From Tomocerus qinae (taxonomy: Eukaryota > Arthropoda > Collembola > Entomobryomorpha > Tomoceridae), in assembly GCA_020055645.1 (NCBI GenBank), contig CM034546.1, positions 7,688,001-7,752,000 on the forward strand: a DNA stretch of 64,000 nt. The letters run 5' to 3'. The position numbers and the translations under genes are program-made. The notes beneath the pieces are model-generated. The model saw only the letters and a program-made list of their open reading frames with translations. It was not told where the DNA came from and did not search any database. Numbering within the stretch: the first letter of the stretch is position 1; each line of letters starts with the position of its first letter. Below are positions 10,929-41,662 of the stretch, piece after piece.

Positions 10929-12239
10929 TCATGAAATCTGAAGTAAATGAATGGCTGGACGAGAATCTTGCGTGTATTGTTTGGCAGGACTTGAAAACAG
11001 ATCATTATTTACATCATAATATTCGGTGGGTTGGCAATCACTTTCAACGTTTATTTGATATTTATGGGAGTGATCTCTAACAAATATTTTTTTGAAAGAG
11101 TTAGTATTTGAACATGTATTAGCCTGCCACTTCTCTAATTCATCTAAGCTAATTTTAGCATAAACTTTGTATTTCATAATCGCGGTTGGTGGCATATTCC
11201 AATGATGAGCCAAATTAGCATAGTAGTTAACCGGATTGAGGAGAATGGGACCGCGATATTGTAATAAAAATGGTGGAATTTCAGATGTTTTGTAATAATC
11301 TTCAAAAATTATGTGCAAATGTTCAAAATCGGCTATCATGTTTAGAAATTTTTTGAACGCCAAGTAAAAATTATTTTCAGGGACACCTTCACAAGCTTTG
11401 ATTGCAATTAATTCCATTATAAATGACTTTCCATGAAAGTATTCTGTTAAATATATTTTCCCATTCCAATATTTAGCCAAACGAACAACTGAACGTACAA
11501 ATTCAGATTGTCGTTTCCCAAACGATACAGCCTCTTCAGATAATCCACTGTTGTAATAGTAATAATAAATAAAAGGATTTGAAAGTTTTTGAATCTTTAG
11601 AAAAGTTTCCTTGTAATTGCTTGAATTTGGTTTTTCATAGTTTGCAGTTGGAATTATATCAAATCTAATTTCCGAAACCTTTATTTTAATTAGCATTTCT
11701 GTGGTTCCCCTATATTTGTAGTTTTCAAATTTATCCGAATGTTTATTAACTATTTGTTGTAACTCGTGAATGACTTTCTGATGTGGTGGATCGATATTGT
11801 TTATGAAAACAACCACATCAAAATCCGAACTCTTATTTAGTGCTGTGCCCTTTCCGGCACTTCCAGCAATGACATATCTGTCGACTTTATAGTGACTTCT
11901 TTTTACAATTTTGAAAATTTGATTTGCAATTTTTCTTCCTTTTTGATAAAAATTATTTGTTGGTTTAATTTGTAAAGAAAAATGTTGTAGTAAATTGTTT
12001 ATTTCGCATTTTGAATTTGAATAAGATGATCTGGGTAAATCCTAGTGTAAGTAAATTATTTATATTATTATATATTAACAATAATCTTTCTATCAACAAT
12101 CAAATGCGCCAAATAATTTTGTTTAATAGCTATGAAAACATACCTCAGAAATATATTTCGAATCCATTCTTACATTTTGTCCAATCACATATTGTATAGC
12201 AGAAAAGCTATGAAGTATTAACAGTATTAAACGACGCAT
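10929..12239 (-). CDS. Secreted OAS-like nucleotidyltransferase 1 (two exons)
   Basis: Exon 1 (12144-12239, 32 codons) starts at an ATG, encodes a hydrophobic signal peptide (LILLILHSFSAIQYVIG) and ends GAG|GTATGT. Exon 2 (10929-12041) starts after TAG in phase 0; the total is 402 residues. Exon 2 carries the OAS-family core: GSAGKGTAL at about 92-100, the Mg-binding DFD at 105-107 followed by VVVFINN, the third Asp in RFDIIP at about 160, the SVVRLAKYW helix (Arg and Lys matching the RL-K-W substrate-binding helix of OAS), an MEL-IKACEGVPENNF block, and a C-terminal RGPILLNPVNYYANLAHHW matching the OAS RP-ILDP motif. OAS enzymes join ATP into 2'-5' oligoadenylates when bound to dsRNA; that activity here is inference. 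The signal exon implies the ER lumen or outside. The C-terminus is longer than in its relatives. Confidence 0.82.
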
Positions 12240-13616
12240 AGATTTTTGGTATTTTTGGAACTAATGAAAACAATTCTAACTTTTGCAACACAAAAGTCTT
12301 TTTGAAATAAGAAAATAATTTTTCCGAAAGTATATCCCTTAATGTATTGGCAGGACAAGCTTTTGTGCTAAAAACAATTCAATTATAACATTGGTGATTG
12401 CTACGAGGAAATTGTTTTACTTAGACTTTAATAATTTAAGTATTTGTATCTTATAGAATTGTCTATCATATGAAATACTTAACTGCATTATTATCTAATG
12501 AGTATATTATCATGCAAGAATACCAAATAAGAGCATTAATACAGCTTCGCGTTAATCGCTAAATGATTTTTTGTGATAGCTTTGTAGCAGTGGCAGAATT
12601 ATTTACCATTATTACAACAATTTATTCTAATATCTACACATTTTTATTTTTTGGCGATTTCAAATATTAGTTTCCCCATTGGAAATACCTTCTCAATATA
12701 CTTTTAACTGTCATGCAGACTTCATTTGCCGTAATGGCGTATTTTGAAGCAGCCAGCGGTTAAACTTAAGCCTAATAAGGTGAATATTGAGTGGGAAGTA
12801 GTCTAATATGACACTTCGCTACCGCTATCGTTAAGGTATTGTATAACTGACAAATTTACGTTTACCTCGATAGCAACGCTAATTACATCTACCCAAACTT
12901 ATTATTTACTTATCAACTTTATAATTTACTTACTGTGCGTGATCGTGAGTGAACTGTCCTTACACTTCTAATAGCCTGTTAAAACTCCCATTAATATTAT
13001 GGCCTTGAAATTATGATAAATAAATACCAATAATTGAAGGCATGGAATTTAAAATAAATAGCATTTTTCTAAATTACAAAAACAATATTCAATGAGTGAC
13101 GTAATGTGCATCAATCCCATTCATTAAATATATTAAAATTAACATTTAACTTAATAAAATTTTGATTAGGGGTGAATCCGTTGAATAAAAAGTGACACTC
13201 CCACTTTCTTTGAAAAATGAAATGTTTGAAATAAATAGGGTACTTGGCATTCATTTCAATAAATTTCGCGTGTTGCGCATGCGTGTACACATGCACATTG
13301 TATTTATTTCATTTAATTCATTTATTTCAATTATTTCAATTATTTCAATAATTTTATTAATTTTAAATATTTCGTTTTTCAAGAAAAATTCCTTGAAAGG
13401 AGAAATTAATGCCATGTATGAATTGGAGAGTTGGTGAGCTTTTTACACATCGAAAGTTACGGACCAATTTCCATTTGGCTTAAAACAACTCACCCTGAGT
13501 TATATTACGTTTTTATAGCTATTCTTTTAATAAAATAGACAATTAACAATGACAATAATGCATTATAGCATTTTATTGAAATTAACCTTGAAATAACTTT
13601 CACAATGCTTTAACTG
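12240..13616. other. Divergent promoter region between OAS-1 (-) and the knottin (+)
   Basis: This region between two divergent genes has a close counterpart at 22086-23290 in unit 2. It contains an alternating TTTCAATTATTTCAATTATT stretch near 13315-13360. The short ORFs are not conserved. Shared control of the two genes is possible but unproven. Confidence 0.5.
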
Positions 13617-13624
13617 TATAAATA
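13617..13624 (+). promoter_or_regulatory. TATA box of knottin gene 1
   Basis: TATAAATA lies 81 bp before the ATG at 13698. The same box is kept at 30193-30202 before the third copy (TATATAAATA) and is degraded to TATATAGA at about 23293 in the pseudogene copy. This pattern supports it as a working promoter element. Confidence 0.6.
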
Positions 13625-13697
13625 CCATCCCAAATGTGATTGTGACATCTGTAATCTGTAACTTATTCTGCTCTGCGCAAGTAAATTGATTTATAAA

Positions 13698-14487
13698 ATG
13701 TCAAGAAAAATTATTCTTTCAGTAATTGCTTACGCGTTGATTGCGATTCTTTGTGGTAACTGAATAACGAAAATAACTAATTTTAAGAAAATATTTACTA
13801 TAAAAATACTATAATGTTGTTTTTAATTTAATAATTATTTCTACATGTGGAATTTTGAAACTTTTATAAGGGTTAGGAAATAAAAATAATATTTGAAATG
13901 TTTTTAAATACGAATACGCTTTATATAAATTCAGTTAACACTTTTAAATTGATATTTATTAATATTTTCATTTATCCAACTGTGAAATCAAAATATTTGA
14001 GTAGGTTTTCGATCAAATGGATTATGCAATAATTCTGCAATTAAATATTATTTATTATAATCCCGTCAAAATGGTAGTTTTTATTATTATTCTTACAACA
14101 AAAAACATAGTACGGCTACGGCTTGGAAATTCTCCTATAACTTCTACTATTATAAGTAACTATTTACTCAATAATTTAAGTAAATTATTAAAAAAATAAA
14201 CTAGATTAACTATCAGTTCGAAATTATTGGCCTGTTGAATTTTAGATGGAACTACGTCGGAGCAAATGATAACATTTATAGAAGGGGATTCTGAAACAGG
14301 GAACTCTAAAGGGCATTATATTGAAAAACGTAGAGCAATTCCTCCTGTTTGGGAAAATGGTCGTTGCAAAACATATGGGGCGTGTTTTATTCAGCAAGAG
14401 TGCTGCAAAGGATACACTTGTAGAGATCGTGAAGGACATTTTTACAACCAATGTACAATGTGGGGACTACCCAGGTATTTCCACTAA
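13698..14487 (+). CDS. Small secreted cystine-knot (knottin) protein
   Basis: There are two exons. Exon 1 (13698-13755) encodes a 19-residue signal peptide ending in Cys plus one base, with donor G|GTAACT. Exon 2 (14246-14487) follows TTTAG and completes the codon in phase 1, giving 99 residues with TAA at 14485-14487. An acidic propeptide-like stretch leads to a KRR site (likely furin-type cleavage). A C-terminal domain follows with six cysteines spaced C-x5-C-x5-CC-x4-C-x10-C. This is the inhibitor cystine knot pattern shared by many arthropod antimicrobial peptides, channel-active peptides and protease inhibitors, so the specific role is not decided. AATAAA lies at 14572-14577. It is sandwiched between OAS-like genes 1 and 2, and the arrangement is duplicated at 20.8-28.4 kb. 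It falls below the usual ORF length because of the split. Confidence 0.75.
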
Positions 14488-14571
14488 TAACCAAAATAAT
14501 AATAAATATAGTTCCTTGACACTTTGGGTGTCCTGTCCTGTATACTTGTTCTCAGTATCTCAGTATTATCA

Positions 14572-14577
14572 AATAAA
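14572..14577 (+). terminator. Polyadenylation signal of knottin gene 1
   Basis: AATAAA lies 85 bp after the knottin stop codon; a second AATAAA follows at about 14623. Confidence 0.5.
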
Positions 14578-14929
14578 AGTACTAAGTACACTTTTGTATC
14601 AATTAATTTTATTGTATTTTGAATAAATCATTAATGTTGAAAAATTATTAGTATTATTGACAGAATGCTGTGTATAATAGTCCAGAACACTTTAGGGGGT
14701 GATTGAACATGCGACAAGGTTTTTGTTATGTATGAAAATACTGTTTATTAAATTTTGAGAATGTATGTTTTTTTTGGGAAATTAAGGGCCACCCTACCAC
14801 CATCCTTTTAAATACGTTCTTGACCGCATAAACACTAGTCTTGATAACCCATGCCGCAGTTAATTGTCCTGTCAATTAACGTTACGTGTGTGTATAGTTC
14901 ATTTCCTGGTAATAGCAGATTGTGAATAG

Positions 14930-15175
14930 AGTTACGATAATTCCCATTTCCCACACTACTTTGCTGGACGTCCGGAAAATGTGGGAAATTGTGTCAAATG
15001 GGAAATAGTAAGAAATATGGGAGATAAAGCCCAAAAATTTGAAGTTTGGCTCTATTTCCCACTATTTCCCACACTTCCCATTTTTTTCTACATTTTGATG
15101 CCATTATTTCCCAGTAGGAAATGGGAAACTTTCCGTTATTTGTGTTTCCCATGTGTAACCTTGATGAAAATGGGT
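14930..15175. repeat. GGGAAAT / ATTTCCC rich imperfect palindromic segment
   Basis: Blocks such as TTCCCATTTCCCACACT, TGGGAAATTGTG, CTATTTCCCACTATTTCCC and CCCAGTAGGAAATGGGAAAC occur in both orientations, so both strands show short ORFs here. A related, decayed block occurs at about 26970-27090 in the duplicated unit. It probably is an old palindromic element or low-complexity repeat and not coding. Confidence 0.45.
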
Positions 15176-15396
15176 ATACTTTATGGGTTTTCAACCACAA
15201 AGAAAATAATACACGATTGATAATATAAATAACGTCGCTGCTATCTTTTAAAACTAATTCAGTTTATTGCAACTTACAATGTGACATACAAATTGCATAT
15301 AAGCACAAAAATTGACGAAATTTGAAACCGCGACTTGAATATAGGTGCCACCGTTTATGGAAAATCTCTGAATTGGCGGGTTGGATGAACATGATG

Positions 15397-16670
15397 TTAT
15401 GCTGAATAATATTTCCCAGGATTCGAAAAATCATAATTCGCTGCATAATAATCGCTAGGTTGGCAATCGCTTTCAAAATGTATTTGATACGCGTGGGAAT
15501 AGTTCTTGATAAATGTATTTTTAAAGAATTTAGTATTAATACAAGAATCAACCTTCCACTTTTCTAGTTCGCCTAAGCTAATTTTAGCATTAACTTTATA
15601 TTTCATAATCGCTGATTGTGGCATATTCCAATGATGAACTATATTAGAATAGTAGTTAACCGGGTCCAAAATAATGGGACCGCGATATTGTAATAAGAAC
15701 TGTGGAATTTCAGATATTTTGTAATAATCTTCAAAAATTATGTGCAAATGTTCAAAATCGGCTATCATGTTTAAAAATTTCTTGAACGCCAAGTAAAAAT
15801 TATTTTCAGGGACACCTTCACAAGCTTTGATTGCAATTAATTCCATTATAAATGACCTTCCATGAAAGTATTCGGTTAAATATATTTTCCCATTCCAATA
15901 TTTAGCCAAACGCACAACTGAATGTACAAATGCAGATCGTCTTTTCCCAAATGATGCTGCTTCTGCAGATAATCCACTGTTGTAATGATAATAATAAACA
16001 AAAGGATTAGCAAGTTTTTGAATCTTTAGAAAAGTTTCCTTGTAATTGCTTGAATTTGGTTTTTTATAGTCTGCAGTTGGAATTATATCAAATCTAATTT
16101 CCGAAACCTTTATTTTAATTAGCATTCCTGTGGTTCCTCTATATTTATAGTTTTCAAATTTGTCGGAATTATTATTTAACACTTTTTTTATTTCCTGAAT
16201 GACTGTCGGATATGGTGGTTCGATATTGTTTATGAAAACAACAATATCAAAATCTGAACGGTTGCTCACGGCGGTGCCTTTTCCAAAACTTCCAGCAATA
16301 GTATATCTGTCGACGTCATAATGACTTCTTTTTAAAATCTTGTAAATCTTCTTCGCAATTTTCCTTCCTTTCAAGTAAATATCATTTGGCGGTTTAATTT
16401 GCAAACAAATATTTTCTAGTATTTTGTTTAACTCGCATTTTGCGCCTGAATTCTCATATGACGAGGACATTTTCCAGTGACAAGATTTAATCTACATTAA
16501 CGAAAATCTTATTATTACCCAGGTATTCACCAAATAGTTGATATTTTTTTATAAATGGTAGTAGGAAAACATACCTCAGAAGAATAATCGCATCCCACAT
16601 TTATATTAATAAGTGTCACTACGCATTGCAGTATCAAAAAAATGTTAAAACAGAGTATCGAACCTTTCAT
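15397..16670 (-). CDS. Secreted OAS-like nucleotidyltransferase 2 (two exons)
   Basis: Exon 1 (16575-16670, 32 codons) encodes a signal peptide with core LCFNIFLILQCVVTLI and ends GAG|GTATGT. Exon 2 (15397-16491) begins after TAG in phase 0, giving 396 residues. An internal ATG at 16470 could be taken as the start, but the open frame continues through it to the acceptor and the same two-exon layout recurs in all five paralogues. Visible motifs: GSFGKGTAV at about 99-107, DFD at 112-114, third Asp at about 167 (RFDIIP), VVRLAKYW with Arg226/Lys229, MEL with Glu249, and RGPIILDPVNYYSN. The last is close to the vertebrate OAS RPVILDP-D-P--N signature. Complete and probably active. It is most similar to OAS-like 4 in the duplicated unit. 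Confidence 0.85.
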
Positions 16671-17330
16671 ACTTACTCAGTGTTTTTATAAAAAATTTAA
16701 ATCTATTAACTTTTGCAACAAATTTTTTTTATAATTGAAGGAATTTTTCAAAACTGTAGTACAAGTCGGAATACTCTTTGTAAGTTCAAGTAGTAACTAT
16801 CGACTTAAACTTTATATATTTAAATTTAAACCATTATCTAATGCCTAATTGCGGAAAATCGTTAAAGTAATTGCCAGGAAACTCAAATTATTCAAGAAAA
16901 CAAGCTGATTCTCGCTGATTACTTTATAACGGGATATAAATTGACGACCTTTTTTAATACCGAGATTTAAATAAAATTGACATAATGCTTACATAACGGT
17001 ATGTAACCTTTATTTATGGGTTTAGTTTGTACGAAGATTAACATTATTATCTTGAAACAGGTGTTAAGCTAAAAGTGGTAAGCAAATGAATTGTTTATTT
17101 CAATAATGGTTGCTGCCATCGCTATTTAGCTCTAAGAGATAGAGGCATATTTTACTATAATCATAATCATTAGTACTATGTTTGTTAGCTTACTTGAATG
17201 CTTGCATATGTATGTCTAAAAATGTATCGCCAAATCAAATGCATGCAAACTCAATTCCTCTTTCCAATCGAGAATCAAGCTATATAGAATCGGACAAGAA
17301 ACATCTCACATAATTATATAAAGAATATTC
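16671..17330. other. OAS-2 upstream region
   Basis: It has clear sequence similarity to 28448-29085 upstream of OAS-like 4, including blocks around the 5' flank of exon 1. No gene or element was recognised. Confidence 0.5.
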
Positions 17331-17335
17331 AATAT

Positions 17336-18145
17336 TGTCAGATGGAATGTAAATTAGTAAGGGAGTTGGATGGTGAGGTAGAGTGAAGAAGGAGAGTCGT
17401 GCGCAGTTTCCTTTCGTGTCGAGCAGAGCGGTGGCATTGTATTCGAGTGTTGTCAGCTTTTAATGTATTAATATGTAAATCAAGCGAGCAGTTGTCGTAT
17501 GGGGAGCGCCATTTTTCTTTACTATTGTACTCTGTTCTTTTCGTGGTTAATTAGGAGAGCACAGCCGATTTGTGATCATTGTCTCTGGAGCTGTGGCTCG
17601 GGATTGATCTCTTAATTGTATTCTAGTTTTTGAGAAGTTTCTGTCTTTAGCTATTAAGTAATTTTGAGTTAGTGTGTAAGTCCGTTCGTATTACTGATTC
17701 AGCTTGCTAACTGTAGTGGTAATACGAACATTGTCACCAATACGAGGAGGAGTGGTCGTAAGCTGAATTTGTTAAGAGGACTTCACTCGGTATTGGGTAC
17801 TAATTGTAATTGTCGGTAAATTTGGTTCATTTACTATTATTTGGGAGTTTGGGATATGTTATTACTATTTATTTGAGTTGTATTTAAATTGATTAATTGT
17901 GTATGATTTATGAAGCATTATTATTTTGGGTGTCATTGAATACGGGTGATGAATTTATGTAATAATTGATTTATGTGGATAAATACCTTCATTATGAGTG
18001 CAATTGTCTGTATGTGTACTAATTGTCGTATTTTCGTCAACTTATAGATATATTAGCATACGAGGTAGGAGATTTGCTCGAGCGGTATATCATATAACGG
18101 CACCTAACATCTTCCAACTGCCTTCCGATTTGCTTTTACACTTAT
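17336..18145. mobile_element. About 810-bp insertion, possible solo LTR
   Basis: Comparison with the paralogous region around 29085-29110 shows that these 810 bp are absent there. The insertion is bounded by direct repeats AATAT (17331-17335 and 18146-18150). It starts TGTCAG and is richer in G+C than its surroundings. A 5-bp target duplication and a TGT start fit an LTR of a BEL/Pao or Ty3-type element, but the expected CA at the far end is not seen (it ends CTTAT), so the type is uncertain. No coding region. Confidence 0.45.
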
Positions 18146-18150
18146 AATAT

Positions 18151-19429
18151 CATTGTTACCATGTATAATATTATGTATTCCTATATCGCATGTATGTATA
18201 TGTAACTGTTGCATCGATTTTTGTATTTATAAGATTTGTAAACGAATACGTACACTACTATCTCGTTACTCTGCATTTTGCCAGTCTTCCAGATGTAGTT
18301 TTAAAATGTCATGTTCGAAAATCAGATTGGTGTAACATGATATTTTCCACATCTATAATTTCGGATAATTTCCGGTTGAATTCATCAGAATTAGTTAGAA
18401 CAACTGAATTATAACTATTACTTCCATACTAAGGCCGACTAAGGTGGAAAGACACTACTTTTACGTTACGTTTTATAAGCGCATACGAATTTATGTTATT
18501 AGTAACACGGCAATACTATGTACTACAGGTACTGTGATGGGCCAGTGGTATATACAGTATACAGTGTGTGATGAGTTATGCGGTCTTGAGTACGAATTCT
18601 TAAAATTCTACCATGCAGTAGAAGCAGAAAAAAATTTAAAAAATGGGTAGAAGAGTATACAAGCAGTATAAATTTTACTACTGAGGATATTCTACCGGAT
18701 CAAGCAGTAAAATTCTTAATTCTTTAGGGACGGCGTTTTAGTTTTCTTCAGCTGACAGGCGGAGCCAGTAGAAGGAAATTATGAGGCTAGACTTCTACTA
18801 GACTAGGCACTTTTTTCATTTAGTATTTCGTTGGGCTTCTATGAGAGTAAATTATGAGAGTGACTTCTACTAGACTCTTTTCATTTAGTATTTGGTTTGG
18901 CTAGATTTACAAGTAAAGGGCAATTTGAGTGTGCAACTTAATGACCCTGTACCGTGCCGTGGCGGCTCTAGGATTTGCGAGGCCCTGGGCAAAATATTCG
19001 CTTGAAGCCGTATAATAACAATTTACAAATATGCATTTACAAAATAAAGGTAATAAGGAAAGGAAAGTCTGTGTTCCGTGAACAGCCTGCTAACCGTTTA
19101 ATATGTTTTGATAGGATGACAAAAAAGTCTATTTATATTACCAAAATAAGATGCCTATTTCCAAAATAAGAACTAAACAGGGTTATAGGACTAAAAAAGT
19201 CATCGTTGATTTAGTTAAAAATTCAAACAAAGATTTTTGGCCTGTCAGCTATCTCAGGTATTTCATTTCTGACTACTCAAAATCATTTTCAGCCAGCTGA
19301 AATGGAACTCGGAAGACAGTATGAAACATATTATTATGCATTAATATTCAAAGATTTGACATTTTGACACTCCGCTTAGCTTTTATTTTATAAGTTCTCC
19401 GCCAAACATGCAATAACACCATCGGACAC
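18151..19429. other. Non-coding tail of unit 1
   Basis: It is homologous to about 29100-29810 up to about 18945, including the GTATATGTAACTGTTGCATC and GCATTTTGCCAGTCTTCC blocks. The short plus-strand ORFs here have stops and indels in the sister copy, so they are not considered genes. From 18950 to 19429 nothing is recognised. Confidence 0.5.
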
Positions 19430-19431
19430 TA

Positions 19432-19980: not shown

Positions 19981-20829
19981 TAAGTCCACGGTGATGTGCA
20001 CTAATATATTTGTTCAATTAAGTCTAGTATACTTCGTAAGCTACTTAGAAGCAAAAAGTCAAAGAAATAAGATTTTCTCAGTTTAGCAGTGAAAAATGCA
20101 GAGGAAAACAGGATAAAATTTAAGTGAACCGTGATAATTTTTGCTAGTTTGGCGAAAATGGTCATCAGTTAAAAATTCATATCGGGTGAATTATTGGATT
20201 TTTAAAAATTTTCGTATTGTTTAATTCCAATTTTATTATTTTATGGTCTTCGTAACCAAATTTTTAGTGCCATATTTTATTTAACATTACTGCTATATAT
20301 TTTCGTATATTTTGCTGATTATAAGCACATTTTATAAAAAATATCTGAGCCTTGCTAATATGTGTTAGAGTGTATGATTGTTGTAAACACCTTTCCTTTT
20401 TATTAATAAAAATAGTAAGAATTAACAAAAATTAAGTAAGAGTTAAGTTATTAAACTTATTATTCTTTATATGTATATTTATTACAAGATATCAACACTC
20501 GTAAGGTGATTGTAAGATTTGGATGAAAGGTAAGACCTTTGAAAAAACATTTTTTAAAGAAAGTAATTAGTACATTATTCAGAGTCCGTTACATCTTCGA
20601 TTCTTGATTCCATTAGTTGTTGTTCTAATAGTTTAGTTTTTAATTTTTTCTTAAATATAGCTAAGGAGTGTGAAGTTCTAATTTCAAAATGGTAAACTAT
20701 ACCAGTACAAGAGAGATTGGTCCATTTGCTTCAATATAACATCCAAAAATTGACAATTAAATTACTGCAATATTACAAAAACTGTGAAATCTGCAGGATT
20801 TGAATGGTTGGAGGAGAATGCTGCGTCTA

Positions 20830-22085
20830 TCATTTGGAAGGACGTGAAAATAGATTTGCTGAATAATATTCGGTGGGCTGACAATCACTTTCAACATTTA
20901 TTTGATATTCACGAGAATAGTCATTAAAAAATCTTTTTTTGAAAAATTTGGTATTCAAACATGGATTAGCCTTCCACTTTTCTAGTTCATCTAAGCTAAT
21001 TTTAGCATTAGCTTTGTATGTCATAATCGCTGACTGTGACATATGCCAATGATGACCCAAATTTTGATAGTAATTAATCGGATTTAGGAGAATGGGGCCG
21101 CGATATTGTAATATGAAATGTGGAATTTCAGATATTTTGTAATAATCTTCAAATATGATGTACAAATGGTCAAAATCGGCCACCATGTTCAAAAATTTTC
21201 TGAACGCTAAGTAAAAATTATTTTCGGGGACACCTTCACAAGCCTTCATTGCAATAAATTCCATCATCAATGATCTTCCATTTAAGAATTCGGTGTAATA
21301 TATTTTCCCATTCCAATATTTAGCCAAACGAACAATTGAATGCACAAATGCAGATTGCCTTTTACCCAATGATACTGATTCTTCAGAAAATCCACTGTTG
21401 TAATGATAATTATGAATAAAAGGATTTGGAAAGCTTTTAATCTTTAGAAATGTTTCCTTGTAATTACTTGAATTTGGTTTGCTATAGTATCCAGTAGGAA
21501 TTATATCAAATCTTATTTCCGACACTGTTATTTTGAATAGTAAATCTGTGGTTCCCCTATATTTGTAGTTTTCAAATTCATCCGATTGTTTATTGACTAT
21601 TTGTTGTAACTCGTGAATGACTTTCTGATGTGGTGGATTAATATTGTTTATGAAAACAACCACATCAAAATCCGCACTCTTATTTACCGCTGTCAACTTT
21701 CCGACACTTCCAGCAATGATATATCCATAGACGTCATAGTGACTTTTTTTAACAATTTTAAATACTTGCTCTGCAATTTTTCTTCCTTTTTGATAAAAAT
21801 TATTTGATGGTTTTATTGACAAAGAAAAATTTTCTAGTATATTATTAATGTCACATTTTGAAGTTGAATCAGATGATTTGGATAAATCCTAGTGGAAAGA
21901 AATTACTTATATTAACAATAATATTTCCATCAACAATCAAACAGTGCACCAAATAAATTCTATTAATTGTAATACCTACAAAAACATACCTCAGAAATAT
22001 ATTTCGATTCCATGCTAATATTTAGTCCAATCACACAATGTAGAGCTAAAAAACTGTAAAGTACTAAATGTATTAAATGATGCAT
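20830..22085 (-). CDS. Secreted OAS-like nucleotidyltransferase 3 (altered P-loop)
   Basis: Exon 1 (21990-22085, 32 codons) has signal core LVLYSFLALHCVIGL and ends GAG|GTATGT. Exon 2 (20830-21888) starts after TAG in phase 0, giving 384 residues. It is the unit-2 counterpart of OAS-like 1. The DFD pair (105-107), third Asp (about 160, RFDIIP), IVRLAKYW, MEF-AMKACEGVPENNF and RGPILLNPINYYQN are present. The P-loop, however, reads GSVGKLTAV (about 92-100) where the other five have GKGTA, and Ala replaces the Ser before DFD. In OAS the GKG(T) turn packs the donor triphosphate, so activity may be weaker or changed. The open frame without stops suggests that the protein is still under constraint. 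Confidence 0.8.
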
Positions 22086-27178: not shown

Positions 27179-28447
27179 CTAATATTTCACAGGAATTGAA
27201 AAATTATAATTCGTTGCATAATATTCGCTAGGTTGGCAATCATTTTCAATATGTATTTGATACTGGCGGGAATAATCTTGGATAAATACATTTTTAAAAG
27301 ATACGGTATTCGAACATGGATTATCCTTCCACTTTTCTAGTTCGCCTAAGCTAATTTTAGCATTAACTTTATATTTCATAATCACTGATTGCGGCATATC
27401 CCAATGATGAGCCAAATTAGTATAGTAATTAGCCGGGGCAAGGACAATGGGACCACGATATTGTAATAAGAACTGTGGAATTTCAGATATTTTGTAATTA
27501 TCTTCAAATATGATGTACAGATGTTCAAAATCGGCCATCATGTTCAAAAATTTCTTGAACGCCAAATAAAAATTATTTTCAGGGACACCTTCACAAGCTT
27601 TGACTGCAATTAATTCCATCCTAAATGATCTTCCGTGGATGAATTCAAAAATATTTACTTTCTCATTCCAATATTTAGCCAAACGAACAACTGAATGTAT
27701 AAATGCAGATCGTCTTTTTCCAAATTCTGTAGATTCTTCAGTTAATCCACCGTTGTAAAGGTGATAATTACTTAGAGGATTTGCAAGTTTTTTAATCTTT
27801 TGAAATGTTTCCTTGTAATTGATTGACTTTGATTTGTTATAGTTTGCAGCTGGAATTATATCAAATTTCATTTTCGATGCTTTTATTTTCACTAGCATAT
27901 CTGTGGTTCCCCTATATTTGTACTTTTCAAATTTGTCGGAATCCTTATTTATTAAATGTTTTATTTCCTGAACGACTTTCAGAACTGGTGGCTCAATATT
28001 GTTTATGTAAACAACCACATCAATATCCGAACGGTTGCTCACCGCGGTGCCTTTTCCAAAACTTCCAGCAAAAGCATATCTTTCGACATCATAATGACTT
28101 CTTTTTATAATCTTATAAATCTTCTTCGCAATTTTCCTTCCTTTCAAGTAAATATCATTTGGGGGTTTAACTTGCAAAGAAATATTTTCTAGTTTTTTGT
28201 TTAACTCGCATTTTCCATTTGAGTTCTCATTTGACTTAGACGATGACATTTTACAGTGATCAGATGTAATCTATATTAACGAAAATCTTATTATTATCCA
28301 GGTATTCCCCAAATATTGTTCACTTTTTATAAATGGTAATAAAAAACATACCTCAGGAGAATAATCGGATCCCACATTTATATTAAAAAGTCCCACTACG
28401 TATTGCAGTATCAAAAAAATGTTAAAACAGAGTATTAAACCTTTCAT
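27179..28447 (-). CDS. Secreted OAS-like nucleotidyltransferase 4 (two exons)
   Basis: Exon 1 (28352-28447, 32 codons) has signal core LILCFNIFLILQYVVGL and ends GAG|GTATGT. Exon 2 (27179-28270) starts after TAG in phase 0, giving 395 residues. It is the unit-2 counterpart of OAS-like 2. Motifs: GSFGKGTAV at about 101-109, DID at 114-116 (the DxD with Ile in the middle), the third Asp in KFDIIP at about 169, VVRLAKYW, MELIAVKACEGVPENNF and RGPIVLAPANYYTN. In the last one the Asp of the ILDP motif is Ala, a small departure. The FGKGTAV P-loop is intact. The N-terminal linker after the signal is Ser/Asn-rich. Confidence 0.84.
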
Positions 28448-30202: not shown

Positions 30203-30264
30203 GAATCCATAAATGAGTATATGGTAATTGTATCTGATTCTGTGCAGATAAATTTACTTACAAA

Positions 30265-32115: not shown

Positions 32116-33374
32116 TGGCTCATGTATATGAACCACGACAGCTCTTAACTGGCACACGAATTTGCTAATGACGATAAGTAAAGTTTACTTGTGAAGAGAT
32201 AGCGGGCAGTTTATCGAGTCGAGACATTATCATGAATATTATTTTGGTAGAACCATTATAATACTTTCATTATCTTTGATCAGGTAGTTTAATACTTTCA
32301 TCTGAAATGACTGTCACTAAACTGTTAAACCATACCAGAATAATAAAATCTATCTCGTGAAGGTTTAATTTTACAATTTTATAGATATGGATTATTTATA
32401 AACAAATTGTAGATGCTTCAAGGCCTGATTTATATAGGTAAGTGACGGTTCAAATATCTAGACTAGGGTCAAAGCCGTGGTCTTTGTTCCAACTGGAATG
32501 ATAACAATGACTCTAATGTCTTCACACTAGCACAGACATTGCAGATAAATATTCTCACAAGGTCCTAGTCTCCTTAAAGAGCAGCAGCCATTATAAACTA
32601 TACTGCCTTTTTTATACAGATACTATTCTTGAATATATAGAATTAAAATTGACTCAATGAATCAAAATGACCTACTTCTATTCCTCGTAACAAATTCAAT
32701 TGCTCTAATCAGCTTTGATTCGAATTCTCTACTATTTAATATACGGTAATAATATTTTGTAAAATCATGATGCCGTTGTCAGATGCTATAGCCTAAAATA
32801 AAAGTTCCTGCATATTTAATGAACATTTGTGATAACATTGTATTCATGTATTAGTTTTATAGGTTAGTTAGTTTTTTTTAATTTTATTCCTTTCCAGTTT
32901 TACTCAGCTCATTTGTCTAGCACCAATAATCGATAAGGATAAAGTCAAGGTGGAAGTTATATCAAGAAAATAGGTTTGACGTCAGCAAAGACCTTCGCTT
33001 CCCTAAGACGAATTGAGCTGGGCCAGAACACCACTAAATTTATAATATAGCTTAAATACAAAGGAATATATCCGGTCAAAACAATCCCAAGTATTACCAA
33101 TTCTAACATAAAAGGTTATTTGGTTTAAGATAAACAGGGTTCTTTATTGCTTAAAGAACTTTTATGTATTTTTCATCCTTTACAAATATTTGTCGGTGAT
33201 CTGGTAAGGTAAAGCTGTTTTAATTTTCATTTTCAATTTGTTTACCCTTTTCAATATTTTTTTAGTATACCATAACTTTTTTTTACCTGCAAATATTAAA
33301 ATTGGTCAACAAATGTTCTTAAAATTTCTTCCTCCATTATTTCAAATGTGCAAATTAAATACCTACCTTTACCA

Positions 33375-33515
33375 TTTCCGCCATCGTTGTAATAATAAAT
33401 AAAGCCTGAAGAGGTACGAGCTGAGGCTTTTAATGTTAACTTCTTTAAATTATGTATGTAGTCAACTTTCTTGTCCAACCGGGTGTGTTTGAATAAGCTA
33501 TGCTTAATATCTCTT
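33375..33515 (-). other. Exon-like open segment of unknown family
   Basis: On the minus strand, after an acceptor-like TTTTTCATAG at about 33515, the frame is open through HTRLDKKVDYIHNLKKLTL and FIYYYNDGGNGK. It meets a good donor (AAAG|GTAGGT) at about 33372. The amino-acid sequence is better preserved than the DNA in the related copy at about 31750-31860, suggesting former coding. No family was recognised, and no neighbouring exon was found. Confidence 0.3.
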
Positions 33516-34334
33516 ACCTATGAAAAACACATTTAATAGTCATAATAATACTGATGCTAATGCTAAAATATCAGTTATATAAATTAGTAATGGTATTTAT
33601 ATTATGATACTGTATTGCGAATCATCATTACAATGTTGGAAGGTGGAAAGCCAAGAAAAACGGATTGACGTCCGCAAAATTGTTCGTCTCTCAGTGACTT
33701 TCCAAAACACGCTTAAATATTTGATATGACTAAGGTTTATATAGGTAAGAGAAACATGACAGCTATTTAGCAACTGCTATTAAAAACAAATAATTATAAG
33801 TAAGTTAATGTGTTCGTTCGTCTTTAGTTGAATTCATTGTTAGTGTTTGTACTTAACGGACATTTACAACTATTTGAATTTTGGCAATCACTATCAATTA
33901 GTGGACCAATTGAGTTAAGGCAACCATTCTGAATTGATTTATATTATACGGGGGAATCTTCTGTAATTATCTTTCCCTCTCCGCCTACAACATATGCACC
34001 TTTTACTATGCATTCCTGTCCCAAAGATTAATATTATTAGTTTTATCCTACTGTCTACATAATATTATTACTTAAAACTTAATTACTAAATGATGTTGCT
34101 ACATTATACTAAATACATTATATCAAATAATCCATGCACATGATTGACGATATTTGCAAACGCTTATAGACATTTACCTAATTAGTTGCATACAAGATCA
34201 ATACATGTCGGCTGTGTCGCGATGAATAATTGAGTATACCAAAGTGTTCTTATTAAAAGAAAACACGAAACATTTATTTATTCAGCCAAAGTATGATTGT
34301 AAGTATGTATATGTGGTAAACTAGGAGGGATAGG

Positions 34335-34735
34335 AGACTGGGAGGGATATAATGACTCTCCCAAACTAGACTGAGAGGGATTCATTTGATCATAATTATA
34401 TGATAATTACTAAACGGTAATAATTAGAGAGTTGATAATACATCACCATCGATTGAAACAAATCTAACTACTAATTATCGTAGATTTGAAATCTTATCAC
34501 GATCGGACATCCCAATCAAAAGATATTGCAATAAAAGCAAACTTGTAAAAAAATGAATTTTTGTAACACCTTTTGAATGAGATGGCCGATATTAATAAGA
34601 TTTCAAATCTGGGATAATTAGACTAGTTTTAATCGATGGAGATAATATCATTTCTCTAATTATTAACATTTAGTAATTATCATATAATTATGATCAAAGT
34701 CTTGTCTGAGAGAGCCATAATATCCCTCCCAGTCT
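34335..34735. mobile_element. 401-bp MITE with inverted ends AGACTGGGAGGGATAT
   Basis: The left end AGACTGGGAGGGATATAATG pairs with the right end (rc AGACTGGGAGGGATATTATG). Inner parts also pair (ATCATAATTATATGATAATTACTAAA with its complement near 34670-34700, and GATTTGAAATCTTAT with ATAAGATTTCAAATC). No clear target duplication was identified. Confidence 0.65.
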
Positions 34736-34801
34736 ACAACATATATGTATAGAAAAGTGTGATTACGTCCTAACGAAATGCAGGTTACCTACTAAAAGGT
34801 G

Positions 34802-36724
34802 TTAAAGTCGGTGTTTAAACCGGAAACACACACGAATTCCTCTTCGAATATCTTTAACCACGATTTTCAGTATGTTCAGAAGACTGATGACATGCATCTT
34901 CAGCATCAATCTGCAGTGCCACAGCCATTCCAGAAGAAATATGAAGAATGATCCAAGTAGAAAATATCCACAAACGAAGAATATTGCATGGATTTTCATA
35001 ACCAGACTAATAGGCAATGTCTGAGATTCTAAATATTTCAGTTGTGCATAGGATATCATATCTTTCAAGTTGTTTTTGAAATTATGTTGTTGCTTGAAAT
35101 GTTTTAGAAAGCCTTTCTCTTGCACGACTTGAAAATACGATCTGAATTTGTGGCGGTAGCAATTTTTGAATTTATAAGATCTTGGTACAGCGAGATCTGT
35201 TTCCTTAACAGTCATACAGGTTCCTTCAGAAGATACTTTAGATGGTAATAGGGGAATATCATAATGACTTTTATATTTAGGACACACTCGAAATAGTTTC
35301 ATTGAGAAGTTGGTCATCATTCTCCTGTTGAGTTCCCACACATCCATTTCATATGTTACATTGGGCTGCCAAACAAATCTGTAGACACTTGAATTCATCT
35401 TGTCAAGAATTTTATATTTGTCAAAAAATTCGGGTCGATTTTCATCGATATTCCGCCGCATGTTTGTTTGTTGAAACAGTTTGTATCCATTTTCCACGAG
35501 ATCTTTAAAATCCACAAATCGCTTTCTGTCTGGCTGAGCAATAATCTCGCTTGTTATCCACGTTTCATATAGATTGGCAATAACAAATCCCATTGACACA
35601 ATTATCAAATACAAAATGTTTCTCCTCTTATTTGAGACTTCTTGATACAAAAGGACGGCTATTGTGGATATAAAAATAAACTCTAATTTCTTATAGAAAG
35701 TAGAAATTCTAAAGCCTAAAACATAAAATGAAATGGGGAATAGGGAGAATATTAACCACCAGCAATAATCATCAAATGTATTTTGAATCAGAACTGTCAA
35801 AGAAGTGTAGAGCAATCGAGGGTTGGCTTCACAGTAATATGGAATCTGTTCTTCAAAGTATTCAATGAAAAAAGTTTCATACCATGTTCTAACATCATAT
35901 TCAACCAATGAGGATAACAACATCCTAATTTCTCCGCATCTACGGTGCTCTTTTTTTACATCCTTTGATCGCCGTCCATAAACTGCAGTGAAGTTTAATT
36001 TTTCAGCCATCAATTCAACAGCTCTCACTGTATTTTGGCAAATCCAATTTAAATGAAGAAATTTTTTCATTGAACGGAGCTTCATTTTACACTGTGGCAA
36101 TTTCTTAGGGCCATCAAAATAAAAATTCCCAAAATGGCCACCAATTTGAATGCCATGAAGACTTCCATGTAAAGTACTCCAAACTCTTTCCCATTCTTCT
36201 TCAGAGTCTTCTGTTTTAAGTGGATGAAGGGTTAACGACTGCCTGTAGAGAATTGGAGTGTACACCGAATATTGATTTTTGTCCTTCATTGCCAAAATAA
36301 AGAATGAACCCACCAAATTTTTAATGAGATGTGAGTGCCGATCAGGAATTATTGTTTTCAATTCATCTTGAACAACGACTATGATTCTTGAATCCAGTTG
36401 ATTTATTTCTTTCACAAAATATGAATGCAGAAATTTTACATAAGTGGGTGGTTCCATAAGAATATTTACACTGCACAAGGTTGTCAACAGAAATCGGGGA
36501 TTATAAATATATCTATTAAAGTTGAATATGCTATAATCTGATGTTGCCAATGTCCATGGCTGACTGTTTTGGTTCGACACAATAAACTCTGTCTCCCACT
36601 CGGATTTATAGAAAGTCACCATGTTAAAATCACAATTGCGGTAGAACGACAAATTTCGAAAGCAGTTGATTTTATTTATAATAATAGAAATTAAAAATAG
36701 TACAATTAAATACATGGTATACAT
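34802..36724 (-). CDS. Divergent ionotropic receptor of subfamily 2, intact
   Basis: This is an intronless 640-codon frame. The frame is open from 36748, but the first ATG is at 36724, which aligns with the start of the neighbouring paralogue. A signal peptide (MYLIVLFLISIIINKINC) is followed by the subfamily signature CFRNLSFY-NCDFNM and a roughly 300-residue extracellular part ending with EEQIPYYCEANP. TM1 then follows (CWWLIFSLFPISFYVLGF), a second hydrophobic segment (IFISTIAVLLYQEVSN) and TM (ILYLIIVSMGFVIANLYETW) running into ITSEIIAQPDRKRFVDFKDL. That last stretch matches the IR pattern leading to lobe S2. The last TM is IHAIFFVCGYFLLGSFFIFLL, before a basic tail. It is a chemosensory-type cation channel by family; ligand unknown. 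It is the only undamaged member of this subfamily here. Confidence 0.8.
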   Translation of the reverse strand: MYTMYLIVLFLISIIINKINCFRNLSFYRNCDFNMVTFYKSEWETEFIVSNQNSQPWTLATSDYSIFNFNRYIYNPRFLLTTLCSVNILMEPPTYVKFLHSYFVKEINQLDSRIIVVVQDELKTIIPDRHSHLIKNLVGSFFILAMKDKNQYSVYTPILYRQSLTLHPLKTEDSEEEWERVWSTLHGSLHGIQIGGHFGNFYFDGPKKLPQCKMKLRSMKKFLHLNWICQNTVRAVELMAEKLNFTAVYGRRSKDVKKEHRRCGEIRMLLSSLVEYDVRTWYETFFIEYFEEQIPYYCEANPRLLYTSLTVLIQNTFDDYCWWLIFSLFPISFYVLGFRISTFYKKLEFIFISTIAVLLYQEVSNKRRNILYLIIVSMGFVIANLYETWITSEIIAQPDRKRFVDFKDLVENGYKLFQQTNMRRNIDENRPEFFDKYKILDKMNSSVYRFVWQPNVTYEMDVWELNRRMMTNFSMKLFRVCPKYKSHYDIPLLPSKVSSEGTCMTVKETDLAVPRSYKFKNCYRHKFRSYFQVVQEKGFLKHFKQQHNFKNNLKDMISYAQLKYLESQTLPISLVMKIHAIFFVCGYFLLGSFFIFLLEWLWHCRLMLKMHVISLLNILKIVVKDIRRGIRVCFRFKHRL

Positions 36725-37749
36725 TTTAATAACACGAATTTTGATCACTTATATCTTCTCAAGTTAACGATTTCAAGTTAGAGAAAGAATGTTCAGTTTT
36801 AAATAACGTCGCACTTGATAGTGAGGCACCAACGAGGTAGTCAAGGCTGGTGGTTGATAGCAAAATAGCAACCAGCGATGACCAACTCTGTCAACTATAA
36901 CTTTTATCACTATACATAGTATTTATATTACAAGTATCTCTAATTGCCGTTAAAATTCTTTGAATTTTTTACTCTGCATGTGCATTTCATAATCAAAAGC
37001 TCAAATAATCATTCTTATAACGATCAATTACGTAGAAATCGTTTAGGATTTTTTTAAAGTTAGAATTTTACAAGTAAGAAGTAGAGAAATTTTGAAATAA
37101 TGTTCACTTATGTTTTCCTCTCTCACTGTCAATATGTACCTATGGAAAGAAAACACGAAACATTTATTTTTTCAGCAAAAGTTTGTTTGTATATGTGTAT
37201 GTAAAAGTAGCATTACGTGCAAAGAATACCCACAGACGAATACTAGAAAGTTCTCTATAATATTTTTTTGTATACAGCTGACATGGGTCCGACTTTCCTG
37301 TGTGTTTTATATTTTATATTGACTTCTGCTAGTTCTATCCTGATATATAACAGATAAAAAGCGTTTACCTTTACCAGAGGTAGGTATACAATATCAAGGA
37401 AAGAATGGTAAAGTGGCCAATGTATAGTAGTTTCAGTACATTTTTGCCACTACCTTAACTTTGATATAATATAATATCGATCTTAATGTAGGTATATAGG
37501 TTTGTCCTTTTTCTAAATTCAAATAAAGTGGATACACCTAATGTCATTAACTGTTTAAAAATGTAAAGTGTCCAATTTCCCATTTTGCAAGATGCATGAG
37601 GTCAAAGCAGGTCTCCAAAACAGCCGAAATTTCGACTTTAAGTAACATGTAATATTTTTTAAAGTATTAGGAAATTTGTAGTTAGTAGAATAAATAAATA
37701 CTACAAACGCTTAATGTTTTGGTCTTTTCGCTCTGAATATATTAAGACT
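36725..37749. other. Intergenic between IR-C and OAS-5
   Basis: AT-rich, with no gene or element recognised. The short ORF at 37110-37322 has no support. Confidence 0.5.
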
Positions 37750-39003
37750 CTAATTTATTGTGTAATATTCGCTAGCTTTACAATCTGTTTTAAAATTAAT
37801 TTTATACTCGGAAGAATAATCTTTACTAAATATATTTTCGAAGGATTTGGAATCAGCACAAGGATTGACTTTCCACTTTTCTAGTTCACTTAAGCTTATT
37901 TTAGCATTCGTTTTATACTGCACGACTGCTGACTCAGAAATACTCCAATGATGAGCCATATTAGCGTAGTAGTTGACAGGATTGAGAAGAATGGGACCAC
38001 GATATTGTAATAAAAATGGTGGAATTTCGGATATTTTATAATAATCTTCAAATATGATGTACAAATGTTCAAAATCGGCCATCATGTTCAGAAATTTCTT
38101 GAAAGCCAAGTAAAAATTATTTTCGGGGACATCTTCACAAGCTTTGATTGCAATCAATTCCATCCTAAATGATCTTCCGTGGGAGAATTCTGCAATATTT
38201 ATTTTCTCATTCCAATATTTAGCTAAACGAACCACAGAATGAACGAATGCCGATTGTTTTCTGCCAAAAGCTGCAGATTCTTCAGATAATCCACCGTTGT
38301 AAGGACAATAATATACAAAAGGATTTGAAAGTTTCTGAATCTTTAGAAACGTTTCTTTGTAATTGGTTGAATTTAGTTTCTTATAGTTAGCAGTAGGAAT
38401 TATATCGAATCTAATTTTTGATGCTTTTATTTTAATTAGCATTTCCGTGGTTCCCCTGTATTTGTAGTTTTCTAATTTATCCGAATTGTCATTTATTGTT
38501 TGTTGTAATTCGTCAATGACCTGCAGTAGTGGTGGCTCAATATTGTTTATGAAAACAACCACGTCAAAATCCGAACTGCCATTTAGCGCTGTACCTTTCC
38601 CAGCACTTCCCGCAATAACATATCTATTAACGTCATAGTGACTTCTTTTTAAAACTTTGTAAATCTGCTTAGCAATTTTTCTACCTTTTAGGTAAAAGTC
38701 ATTTGTTGGTCTAATTGACAAAGAAAAATTTTCTAGCATATTATTAATGTCACATTTTGAAGCTGAAGTGAACAATTTTGATGGCGATCCCTTCCATTGC
38801 AAATCTGTAATCTACAATACAAAAAAATATTTTTATGCATTCTTAATAGTGAAGAAACTTTTACCTAATTAACTAATATTTATGATAATGTGCCAAAAAC
38901 TTACCTCATGACAGTATTCTAATGTTCTACTGTTATTTCCTCCGGCTAAAACTTGTAGAACAAGAAAACTGTTAAACATAACCCCAAGTAACGGACCACT
39001 CAT
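37750..39003 (-). CDS. Secreted OAS-like nucleotidyltransferase 5 (two exons)
   Basis: Exon 1 (38905-39003, 33 codons) encodes a signal peptide (LLGVMFNSFLVLQVLAGG) followed by an N-glycosylation-type NNS and a Cys, ending GAG|GTAAGT. Exon 2 (37750-38811) follows TAG in phase 0, giving 386 residues. Visible: GSAGKGTAL at about 101-109, DFD at 114-116, third Asp at about 169 (RFDIIP), VVRLAKYW, MELIAIKACEDVPENNF (Asp replaces the usual Gly of ACEGV) and RGPILLNPVNYYAN. It stands apart from the duplicated unit, flanked by IR genes, and is intact. The reading frame from TTG at 38802 is only part of exon 2. Confidence 0.84.
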
Positions 39004-40410
39004 TTTTGGTATTTTTGACCTAATAATAAAAGTAGATTTTAAAACTTTGTAACACAGCGGGCAAACGAAACTTTAATACTGTTTAAAAAAGTAGTCACAT
39101 AAATCATTTTTGTGCCACAGAAATTAGGAAACTTTCAGTCCACTAAAGTGATTATTAAAAAGTCAATTTTCAATGGCATTACTTTAACATTTAAATTATT
39201 TATGGCAATAAACCTATTGTGAGAAGATCTTATGCTAATTTCGTACTATATTCATTCCAAAATTCATGGCCTCAGTTTTAAATGAAATGGAAATGTTACA
39301 CAGAAAAAATTTGATAACACGTTGTGCGTTAATTGCTACATCCTTGTACAGATTATGAAGTAAACGTGCAAATGATGAAAGTCGAAATTGTTATCACAAT
39401 ATTACAACTACTTACCGAATTGCCTTGGAACAGAGTTGTTCTTCAATGTTAGAAACTTGAGATGTTCGTGTGAATAATCTTTTTAGTGCGAGTATTGGAC
39501 GAAGTTCAGATTGTCCTTTGCAATAGGTAATTACCTACATAATGTATTGTAGTTAATGTAATGTTCGTTGTAATGGACGCGTTTCTATATTTAAGTGCAG
39601 CGGGCAGCTGTTAGCAAAGATAGATAAATAGAAGTGAAGGGAAATTTGTTAATATGACACTTATTGATGGTTATACGACTTGGGAAATTTACCTGTTTTA
39701 CCTTTTTTTCTTTTAACATTCTACCCTAATAACGAGGTTTTACCTACAGATACTGCAAGTTATAGTCATCAGCGGTATCATTTCCCTGTGAACTATAATT
39801 ATGGGCTCAACGTTAATGACCACCTTATTTTTAAAACTGTCATTAGCATTCTTGCCTTAAAAGTCTGGTTATAGATATATACGAATAAGCTTGACATTTC
39901 ATAAGTTAAAAAAGTATGCTATATCTATTTATGTTTTTCGTTTAGCTAACGGATGGGGAAAATATGCACGACTCGATTAACATGTTTTCATAAACTTAAA
40001 ACACAATATTTGTTACCAAAACACAAAATTCTGCACAAGATAATTTATTTCGGGGCAGCTTGAGAAAATGACATTAACTAGTTTAGTTCGGAGTTTAATG
40101 ATTAAAAGTTAATATAATTGCAATATTTTTGGATAAATTCGACTTGGATTTAAACCTCCAAATTCCATTTATCTACCGTTAACTATATGCATACAAAACA
40201 GTTAAAACTCTCAAATAAAGCTCAACCTGAGCATATATCATATGTATTTTTGGTATATTTATGTGTAGCTGGATATTATACAAACAAACAATTGAATATA
40301 CTATCACAAAATTTGCAGACAAATATCTAAACCATTAATAAGTAAATTTACATATTTTAAGGCATTATGTAATGTTTGTTAAAAGTTATGTAGCATTTTT
40401 AAAACAAATC
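39004..40410. other. Intergenic between OAS-5 and OAS-6
   Basis: No gene was recognised. The 64-codon ORF at 39680-39874 lacks a family match and paralogue support. Confidence 0.5.
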
Positions 40411-41662
40411 TTAATCTATTGTATAATATTCACTAGGACTGCAGACACTGTCCAAATTTATGTGAAAGTCGGAAGAATAGTCTTTATTAAAAATATTATC
40501 AAAGTATTGGGTATTGGCACAAGGGCTAACCTCCCACTTTTCTAGTTGATTTAAACTAATTTTAGCATTGATTTTGTACCTCAAAATTGCTGTCCTTGGA
40601 ATATTCCAATGATGAGCCAAATTAGAATAGTAACTGACAGGATCGAGAATAATAGGACCACGATATTGTAATAAGAAAGGTGGAATTTCAGATATTTTGT
40701 AGTAATCTTCAAAAATAATATTCAAATGTTCAAAATCTGCTAACATATTCAAAAATCTTTTAAAAGCTAAATAGACATTATTTTCGTGAACACCTTTACA
40801 AGCTTTTATGGCAATTAATTCCATCCTAAATGATCTTCCGTGAAAGTATTCAGGTAAATATAGCTTTGCATTCCAATATTTAGCCAAACGAACCACAGAA
40901 TGCACAAACGCTGATTGCTTTTTGCCAAATGCTGCAGCTTCTTCAGAAAATCCACCGTTATAACGATAATAATGTACAAAAGGATTGGCTATTTTCTTTA
41001 CTCTTTGTGAATTTTCCTCAAATTGGCTTGAATTTGAATTTTTATAATTGGCTGTGGGCATTATATCAAACTTGAAATTCGACACTTTAATTTTTATCAG
41101 CATTTCTGTAGTACTTCTGTATTTATAGTTTTCTAATTGGCCGGAAAACTTATTTATTGTGTGTTTTAGTTCTTGAATAACATGAAGATATGGTGGCTCA
41201 ATATTGTTTATAAAAACAATCACATCAAAATCAGAACCGTTATTTATGGCTGTTCCTTTTCCAGCACTTCCCGCAATTAAATACCGGTCTAAGTCATAGT
41301 GACTACTTTGTAGAATTTTGAAAATCTTTTTTGCAATGTGCTTTCCTTTCAGATAAAAATTATTTGGTGGTTTTATTTGTAGTGAAAACTTTTCCAGTAC
41401 ATTTCGAATGTCACAAGTTGAAGTTGAATCCCGAGTATTGAATGGTCTCGGTTTCCACTGCAACGATGGAATCTAAAATAATAAATGAATTATAAATCGC
41501 ATTCCACAATGATCTACTGTATTGTCAGAAAATAGTATCTATTTGAAATATGTAAGTAAAAAAACTTACCTTACAAAGACATTCGGATTCCTTAGTTTTA
41601 TTTACTCCCATTACACATTGCAGAACCAAACAAATATATAATTTAATTATTAGACTATTCAT
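40411..41662 (-). CDS. Secreted OAS-like nucleotidyltransferase 6 (two exons)
   Basis: Exon 1 (41570-41662, 31 codons) encodes a signal peptide (LIIKLYICLVLQCVMGV) and ends AAG|GTAAGT. Exon 2 (40411-41472) follows TAG in phase 0, giving 384 residues. It has GSAGKGTAI at about 99-107, DFD at 112-114, third Asp at about 167 (KFDIMP), VVRLAKYW, MELIAIKACKGVHENNV (a Glu-to-Lys change in ACEGV) and RGPIILDPVSYYSN. The last has the vertebrate-like ILDP. It is the most divergent of the six, but all catalytic positions are in place. Confidence 0.84.

Follow-up and report, generated by a model that had tools for sequence, protein, structure and literature searches.

OAS enzymes and the other CD-NTases are usually treated as cytosolic alarms. 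Vertebrate OAS forms are not known to have a signal peptide, and CdnC of Escherichia coli makes cyclic triadenylate. OAS1 p46 is prenylated and sits on endomembranes, at their cytosolic face (PMC8357416), and extracellular vertebrate OAS1 is reported to be active and to enter cells (PMC7077331, citing Kristiansen, 2010 and Thavachelvam, 2015). The eukaryotic OAS superfamily, which is recognized by the OAS1_C domain, falls inside bacterial clade C (Culbertson and Levin, 2023, PMC10732462). The ITPRIPL1 group falls in the other CD-NTase superfamily of animals (PMC10732462), and ITPRIPL1 itself is a type I membrane protein and a cell-surface ligand of CD3e (PMC11357910). Here we describe a cluster of six OAS-like genes in the springtail Tomocerus qinae, each with an upstream exon for a predicted signal peptide. 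The window, meaning the whole stretch analyzed, covers 64,000 nucleotides (contig CM034546.1, called C1 below, 7688001-7752000), and genome searches were run on the 334-Mb assembly of 115 contigs. We propose that the six genes encode exported, disulfide-folded enzymes of the OAS superfamily that descend from a single gain of the signal, an account to which sequence analysis leads us to give a probability of about 0.6.

The cluster proteins resemble vertebrate OAS1 and OAS2 in their OAS1_C score over the cut-off, their GS...DxD...D layout and their R-L-x-K-x-W helix, but differ from them by the signal exon, the N- and C-terminal extensions and four common cysteines. They also have R/K-S-F/L where OAS has Q-Y and CdnC has K-S-F. 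As with OAS1 p46, an OAS would be relocated to the endomembrane system, but p46 is lipid-anchored on the cytosolic face (PMC8357416), whereas the lumen is proposed for the cluster. Extracellular OAS1 offers a second parallel as an OAS found outside cells, although it is a vertebrate protein and the passages cited make no mention of a signal peptide (PMC7077331). ITPRIPL1 is likewise a relative with an NTase fold that takes the secretory route (PMC11357910), but it is membrane-anchored and comes from a different superfamily, one whose Mab21 domain finds no match in the cluster. A preliminary description made from the DNA letters had known of no described secreted OAS clade. Extracellular OAS1 activity has been reported in vertebrates (PMC7077331), but of an OAS clade with signal peptides we found no report among the best-ranked papers of the open-access literature, a search that leaves subscription papers and preprints outside.

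Gene Structure and the Signal Exon

The six genes, lettered A to F from low to high coordinate, occupy 10929-41662 on the minus strand. Each consists of an exon 1 of 93-99 bp (32 codons in A, B, C and D, 33 in E, 31 in F), an intron of 81-102 bp and a single catalytic exon of 1059-1113 bp. The joins are in phase 0 in all six, with donors AG/GTATG or AG/GTAAG and acceptors AG, and the spliced proteins measure 384-402 amino acids (aa). The models and tblastn thus bear out the signal exons of 31-33 codons joined in phase 0 that had been described from the letters, and the two junctions given there as examples (38905 to 38811 and 41570 to 41472) are exact. With the six catalytic exons as queries, tblastn finds six places only, hence no seventh copy in the window. 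The upstream flanks, promoter regions included, align throughout and are duplicated with the genes. The exons are as follows (NTase, nucleotidyltransferase; ORF, open reading frame).

12144..12239, minus strand: gene A exon 1, predicted signal peptide MRRLILLILHSFSAIQYVIG followed by QNVR...; hydrophobic core, Kyte-Doolittle 2.25; donor AG/GTATG
10929..12041, minus strand: gene A exon 2, predicted catalytic NTase and C-terminal extension; OAS1_C 24.6 bits (computed for the shorter ORF, 10929-11816); DFD and FDIIP in exon 2
16575..16670, minus strand: gene B exon 1, predicted signal peptide (spliced model)
15397..16491, minus strand: gene B exon 2, predicted catalytic NTase; OAS1_C 31.1 bits
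21990..22085, minus strand: gene C exon 1, predicted signal peptide (spliced model)
20830..21888, minus strand: gene C exon 2, predicted catalytic NTase with altered GS motif, GSVGKLTA; OAS1_C 22.4 bits
28352..28447, minus strand: gene D exon 1, predicted signal peptide (spliced model)
27179..28270, minus strand: gene D exon 2, predicted catalytic NTase; OAS1_C 30.4 bits, SMODS 27.1 bits
38905..39003, minus strand: gene E exon 1, predicted signal peptide (spliced model)
37750..38811, minus strand: gene E exon 2, predicted catalytic NTase; OAS1_C 26.7 bits
41570..41662, minus strand: gene F exon 1, predicted signal peptide (spliced model)
40411..41472, minus strand: gene F exon 2, predicted catalytic NTase; OAS1_C 28.1 bits

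Exon 1 starts with ATG and encodes a hydrophobic stretch in all six genes. The best 11-residue Kyte-Doolittle mean is 2.05-3.03 there, against 1.23-1.88 beyond residue 35. By eye, five of the six predicted signal peptides show a cleavage-like V-x-G or A-G-G at the aligned place (V-V-T in B), with G at the aligned -1 site (T in B). A mechanical two-exon scan for an ATG, a hydrophobic core and a phase-matched donor and acceptor finds a signal exon in 6/6 cluster genes and in 0/10 other loci of the family; it reaches 1500 bp and considers an exon that adjoins the catalytic exon in the transcript, so that a signal exon farther upstream would be missed. As background, the scan also succeeds at 94 of 1500 positions drawn at random from the window and in 6 of 600 Markov-1 upstreams, and because the six cluster genes are relatives they do not count as six independent trials. 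When neutral drift is simulated, 8-24 of 1000 exon 1 copies stay ATG-led, open and hydrophobic at 65% nucleotide identity, and 56-147 of 1000 at 80%; the observed pairwise identities are 62-92%. A genome search with the signal peptide of gene B for a source gene recovered gene B itself, gene D and a single weak match (E 0.29) lying in sequence that shows no sign of such a gene, and borrowing of the exon from another gene was set aside since no candidate donor emerged.

Exon 2 is under purifying selection, with a ratio of nonsynonymous to synonymous substitution rates (dN/dS) of 0.16-0.50 over 15 pairs. In exon 1 the ratio is 0.37-1.98 over few sites, as in a fast-evolving sequence; signal peptides are often poorly constrained in their residues. 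One may then ask whether exon 1 is unused, or confined to an alternative isoform, the proteins being OAS-like and acting inside the cell. Genes B, D and E would allow this, as an in-frame methionine of exon 2 precedes the catalytic motif and translation could start there, and nine of the ten relatives elsewhere in the genome appear to lack a signal. In A, C and F, however, the first exon 2 methionine (positions 116, 208 and 124, respectively) comes after the catalytic DxD, which means that the active site needs an upstream exon. Exon 1 has also stayed open and hydrophobic in all six genes despite the drift expectation, and a set of invariant cysteines is limited to the cluster. These observations make a cytosolic location improbable.

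Cysteines Limited to the Cluster

Cysteines were compared in a 13-row alignment of the six cluster genes and seven paralogues, in which gaps count as absent and which leaves the paralogue L007 outside. Four columns are cysteine in 6/6 cluster genes and in 0/7 aligned paralogues (C20, C225, C318 and C344 in the exon 2 numbering of gene E). The core column holds another residue in all seven paralogues. The N-terminal column holds another residue in three and a gap in four, the gaps arising because the first exons of these four are missing from the alignment; by eye, those exons contain no cysteine. The two C-terminal columns are gapped in four and in all seven paralogues, respectively, because the paralogues have no C-terminal extension. 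Invariant cysteines and a signal peptide gained together are the expected outcome of oxidative folding in the endoplasmic reticulum (ER). With the scan and drift controls, these added cysteines support the secretory route already predicted from the conserved signal peptide in the preliminary description, and the cluster proteins very probably enter it.

Family Assignment

In a Pfam scan of unspliced ORFs (that of gene A being N-terminally short), OAS1_C (PF10421) exceeds its 19.9-bit cut-off in all six genes with 22.4-31.1 bits, and NTP_transf_2 exceeds its own in three. These two profiles had been proposed as a check, and the OAS-type assignment comes through it: membership of the cluster proteins in the OAS superfamily is supported by their domain profiles. 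SMODS matches four genes and reaches its cut-off in D only; an eSMODS assignment was rejected, since SMODS is not the top domain and OAS1_C ranks higher in 4/4. With E values up to 1 allowed, Mab21 (PF03281) matches none of the six ORFs, the short one of gene A included, and a Mab21/cGLR assignment was rejected on the Pfam ranking. Aligned to OAS1 and OAS2, all six proteins keep the three catalytic aspartates (the DxD and a third), and all have a GS motif and the RLAKYW helix. To this extent the OAS motifs described for every gene are indeed there; the exact strings are not, as C reads GSVGKLTA, D reads DIDVVVY and F reads FDIMP. The "P-loop" of that description we take to be the polymerase-beta-type GS motif rather than a Walker P-loop.

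By E-value, the strongest curated profiles are those of the bacterial cyclases of the cyclic-oligonucleotide-based antiphage signaling system (CBASS). NF041116 (CBASS_cyclase_a) matches all six proteins (best E 1.3e-21; gene E, 8.7e-18), and the PADLOC Cyclase profile reaches 1.2e-20 on the cluster. E. coli CdnC is the best sequence match for the cluster among solved structures and shares the RLAKYW and KSFxxEL motifs. In contrast to CdnC and the CBASS cyclases, the cluster genes lie far under the 200-bit cut-off of NF041116 (the genome scan gives A, B, D, E and F 61.5-75.7 bits and C 52.6), they are animal genes with introns, and Pfam recognizes no CBASS partner in the eight other window ORFs that were scanned, the remaining short ORFs lying outside that scan.

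This likeness raises the question of an independent transfer, in which a CBASS cyclase unrelated to animal OAS entered the genome and the signal peptide was added later. For the cluster alone CdnC does stand above OAS: its profile retrieves CdnC first (2.7e-13), then OAS2 and OAS1 (OAS at 1.3e-11), and in pairwise BLAST gene A scores 67 bits with CdnC vs 56 with OAS. Pairwise scores are mixed, however, with gene B close to a tie (61-62 bits for OAS1 vs 61-65 for CdnC) and the paralogues L009, L011 and L014 scoring higher with OAS1. A profile of 13 of the springtail's own paralogues puts OAS2 first (4.2e-33, vs 1.7e-23 for OAS1 and 3.4e-23 for CdnC), and in trees without an outgroup the family stands apart from the bacterial sequences. 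Such a transfer is very improbable, and the mixed ranking fits the published placement of the OAS superfamily inside bacterial clade C (PMC10732462).

A recent origin by capture from one of the sampled microbes was also set aside as the leading reading, as no close microbial relative was found. A tblastn search with gene E finds no match among plasmids (E 1e-3) or among phages (E 1e-2), and no relatives were confirmed in viral contigs with gene E patterns or in prokaryote genomes with family patterns; the CdnC genes that a bacterial query retrieves share 19-23% identity with gene E (37 aligned). Two AlphaFold models are both weak. The one from the six cluster sequences has a predicted template-modeling score (pTM) of 0.28 and a predicted local distance difference test (pLDDT) of 42.5, and the one from the six plus 37 CdnC sequences has 0.52 and 54.6. 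With the second model Foldseek ranks CdnC first, second and fourth and OAS1 third (E 5e-8 to 9e-8), at low TM-scores of 0.31-0.38 and with CdnC already in the input alignment, so that the fold search weakly supports the CdnC/OAS relation.

Relatives and Origin of the Signal

A genome search with gene E finds 16 places, the six of the cluster and ten elsewhere (L015 and L016 being remote), and the NF041116-type genome scan gives at least 14 OAS-type loci; the search counts are lower bounds. By eye, nine of the ten relatives have a signal-less methionine start: MGLKASKS in L007, MDNSMLN in L008, MDNIDFS in L009, MEFQLNT in L010, MPDAKYL in L011, MESQVNT in L012, MDTEAEI in L013, and MGQxKSRK in L015 and L016; L014 is the tenth. 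Those of L010-L013 depend on the chosen splice site, and in L008 the frame upstream of the methionine is open and hydrophobic without a methionine of its own, so that an upstream exon is possible there. The N-termini of L007, L015 and L016 look like N-myristoylation signals, which we take them to be on appearance.

In two 28-row trees the cluster forms one clade (100/99) nested in its own family (99/98 and 96/96), with L007 as its neighbor (96/92, 98/93), followed by L008 at lower support (83/77, 91/90). The bacterial rows (8 and 10 in the two trees) and four vertebrate OAS rows form groups apart. The trees have an arbitrary root, no outgroup and a long-branch warning, and the sister order of these groups is not read from them. 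Since the cluster is a single clade among relatives that look signal-less, the signal exon was probably gained once, at its base.

A Proposed Route and Its Weighing

We propose that one ancestor within an OAS-like family gained, once, the signal exon together with cysteine-bearing N- and C-terminal extensions, and that tandem duplication of this ancestor produced the six genes. A cleavable signal peptide would bring the proteins into the ER, where they would form disulfides as they fold before being exported. Export is proposed because none of the six has a KDEL-like C-terminus and no other strongly hydrophobic stretch is found beyond the signal peptide; it seems likely in preference to retention. 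The mature proteins are basic, with isoelectric points of 8.8-9.3. Outside the cytosol, in haemolymph or in the lumen of gut or gland, the enzymes would still join nucleotides from ATP. Their role may be that of an immune or host-interaction effector, likeliest through nucleic-acid binding and an (oligo)adenylate product; going by the habit of the family, we regard such a role as an even chance.

Several points weigh against this account, besides the exon 2 methionines of B, D and E and the loose constraint on exon 1. L007, which has no signal exon, carries by eye a cysteine (KSC) matching the core column, and that cysteine may therefore predate the signal exon. An N-x-S sequon stands 3-4 residues before the first catalytic aspartate in all six genes and at the same place in one of the seven aligned paralogues (L009); a glycan, if attached there, could block catalysis. 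The GS motif of gene C has GKL for GKG. To our knowledge, activators and product receptors of OAS or CdnC are not known outside the cytosol.

Some of these points would suit a secreted pseudoenzyme or ligand, an exported fold that binds nucleic acid or a receptor without catalysis. Besides the sequon beside the active site and the change in gene C, such a reading could draw on L007, the closest relative, which has lost the GS motif and both aspartates of the DxD, so that activity is dispensable in the lineage; ITPRIPL1 sets a precedent as a cGLR-superfamily domain acting as a cell-surface ligand (PMC11357910). A pure binder, however, needs neither the three catalytic aspartates nor the RLAKYW helix that all six proteins retain at a dN/dS of 0.16-0.50, and we consider it rather unlikely. 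Because the aspartates are kept in 6/6 under purifying selection, we favor exported enzymes, and the cluster proteins are probably active nucleotidyltransferases. A 2'-5' product, as suggested in the preliminary description, is doubtful. The nearest solved structure by sequence is CdnC, and the two residues ahead of the E-L motif are S-F (S-L in C), a pair that CdnC shares, and not the Q-Y of OAS1.

KEN Genes and Other Neighbors

Besides a single IRE1-like gene that includes a membrane stretch (L128), the genome holds five further Ribonuc_2-5A (KEN) loci.

C1, 38.985, 10.965, 68.794, 68.394 and 3.162 Mb: L129-L133, in this order, Ribonuc_2-5A loci of RNase L/IRE1 type

By eye, all five are open frames with a complete or partial kinase domain; in the two scanned by Pfam, kinase plus Ribonuc_2-5A and no ankyrin repeat are found, and visual inspection of ORFs of at least 75 aa turned up no ankyrin-like exon within about 8 kb upstream of four loci. 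The open frame of L133 contains a short hydrophobic run that no methionine precedes, and a membrane part is possible. These genes could be effectors for cytosolic OAS-like proteins in a pathway like that of OAS and RNase L; nothing ties them to the six genes of the cluster. About 620 bp upstream of one kinase-KEN gene lies an NB-ARC STAND ATPase ORF. This and the remaining neighbors are listed here.

L136, 2497-4029, minus strand: NB-ARC STAND ATPase ORF, 511 aa, 5.8e-11
1803-4055, 6250-8235, 34802-36748, 42785-43609, 44886-45878 and 54338-55963, all minus strand: ORFs resembling divergent ionotropic receptors (IR-like, by eye)
43838-43975 and 44745-44882: oppositely oriented tandem arrays of 21 bp, between two pieces of an apparently split IR-like ORF
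48806-49439: tandem array, unit of about 20 bp, 31.5 copies
60643-61089 and 63270-63659, plus strand: polysaccharide deacetylase exon (PF01522), present twice at a short distance

Pfam, run on four of the IR-like ORFs, gives sub-threshold Lig_chan matches only, in two, and some of these ORFs look split or frameshifted. Among the matches listed for the deacetylase exon at 60643-61089 are five from bacterial plasmids, 30-33% identical, and an old transfer is possible.

Concluding Remarks

The genome has the 114 Chitin_bind_4 rows of an arthropod and a single weak row for the insect odorant-receptor family, which makes a winged insect improbable; it holds at least 14 OAS-type loci and KEN genes beside IRE1. 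One tentative extension, to which we give less than even odds, is an OAS clade whose (oligo)adenylate signals arise in the secretory lumen or extracellularly, giving the animal an extracellular second messenger or a nucleic-acid sensor. If a group of paralogues has indeed shifted into the secretory route while retaining its active site, it would point to extracellular nucleotide signaling or to a new use of the fold.

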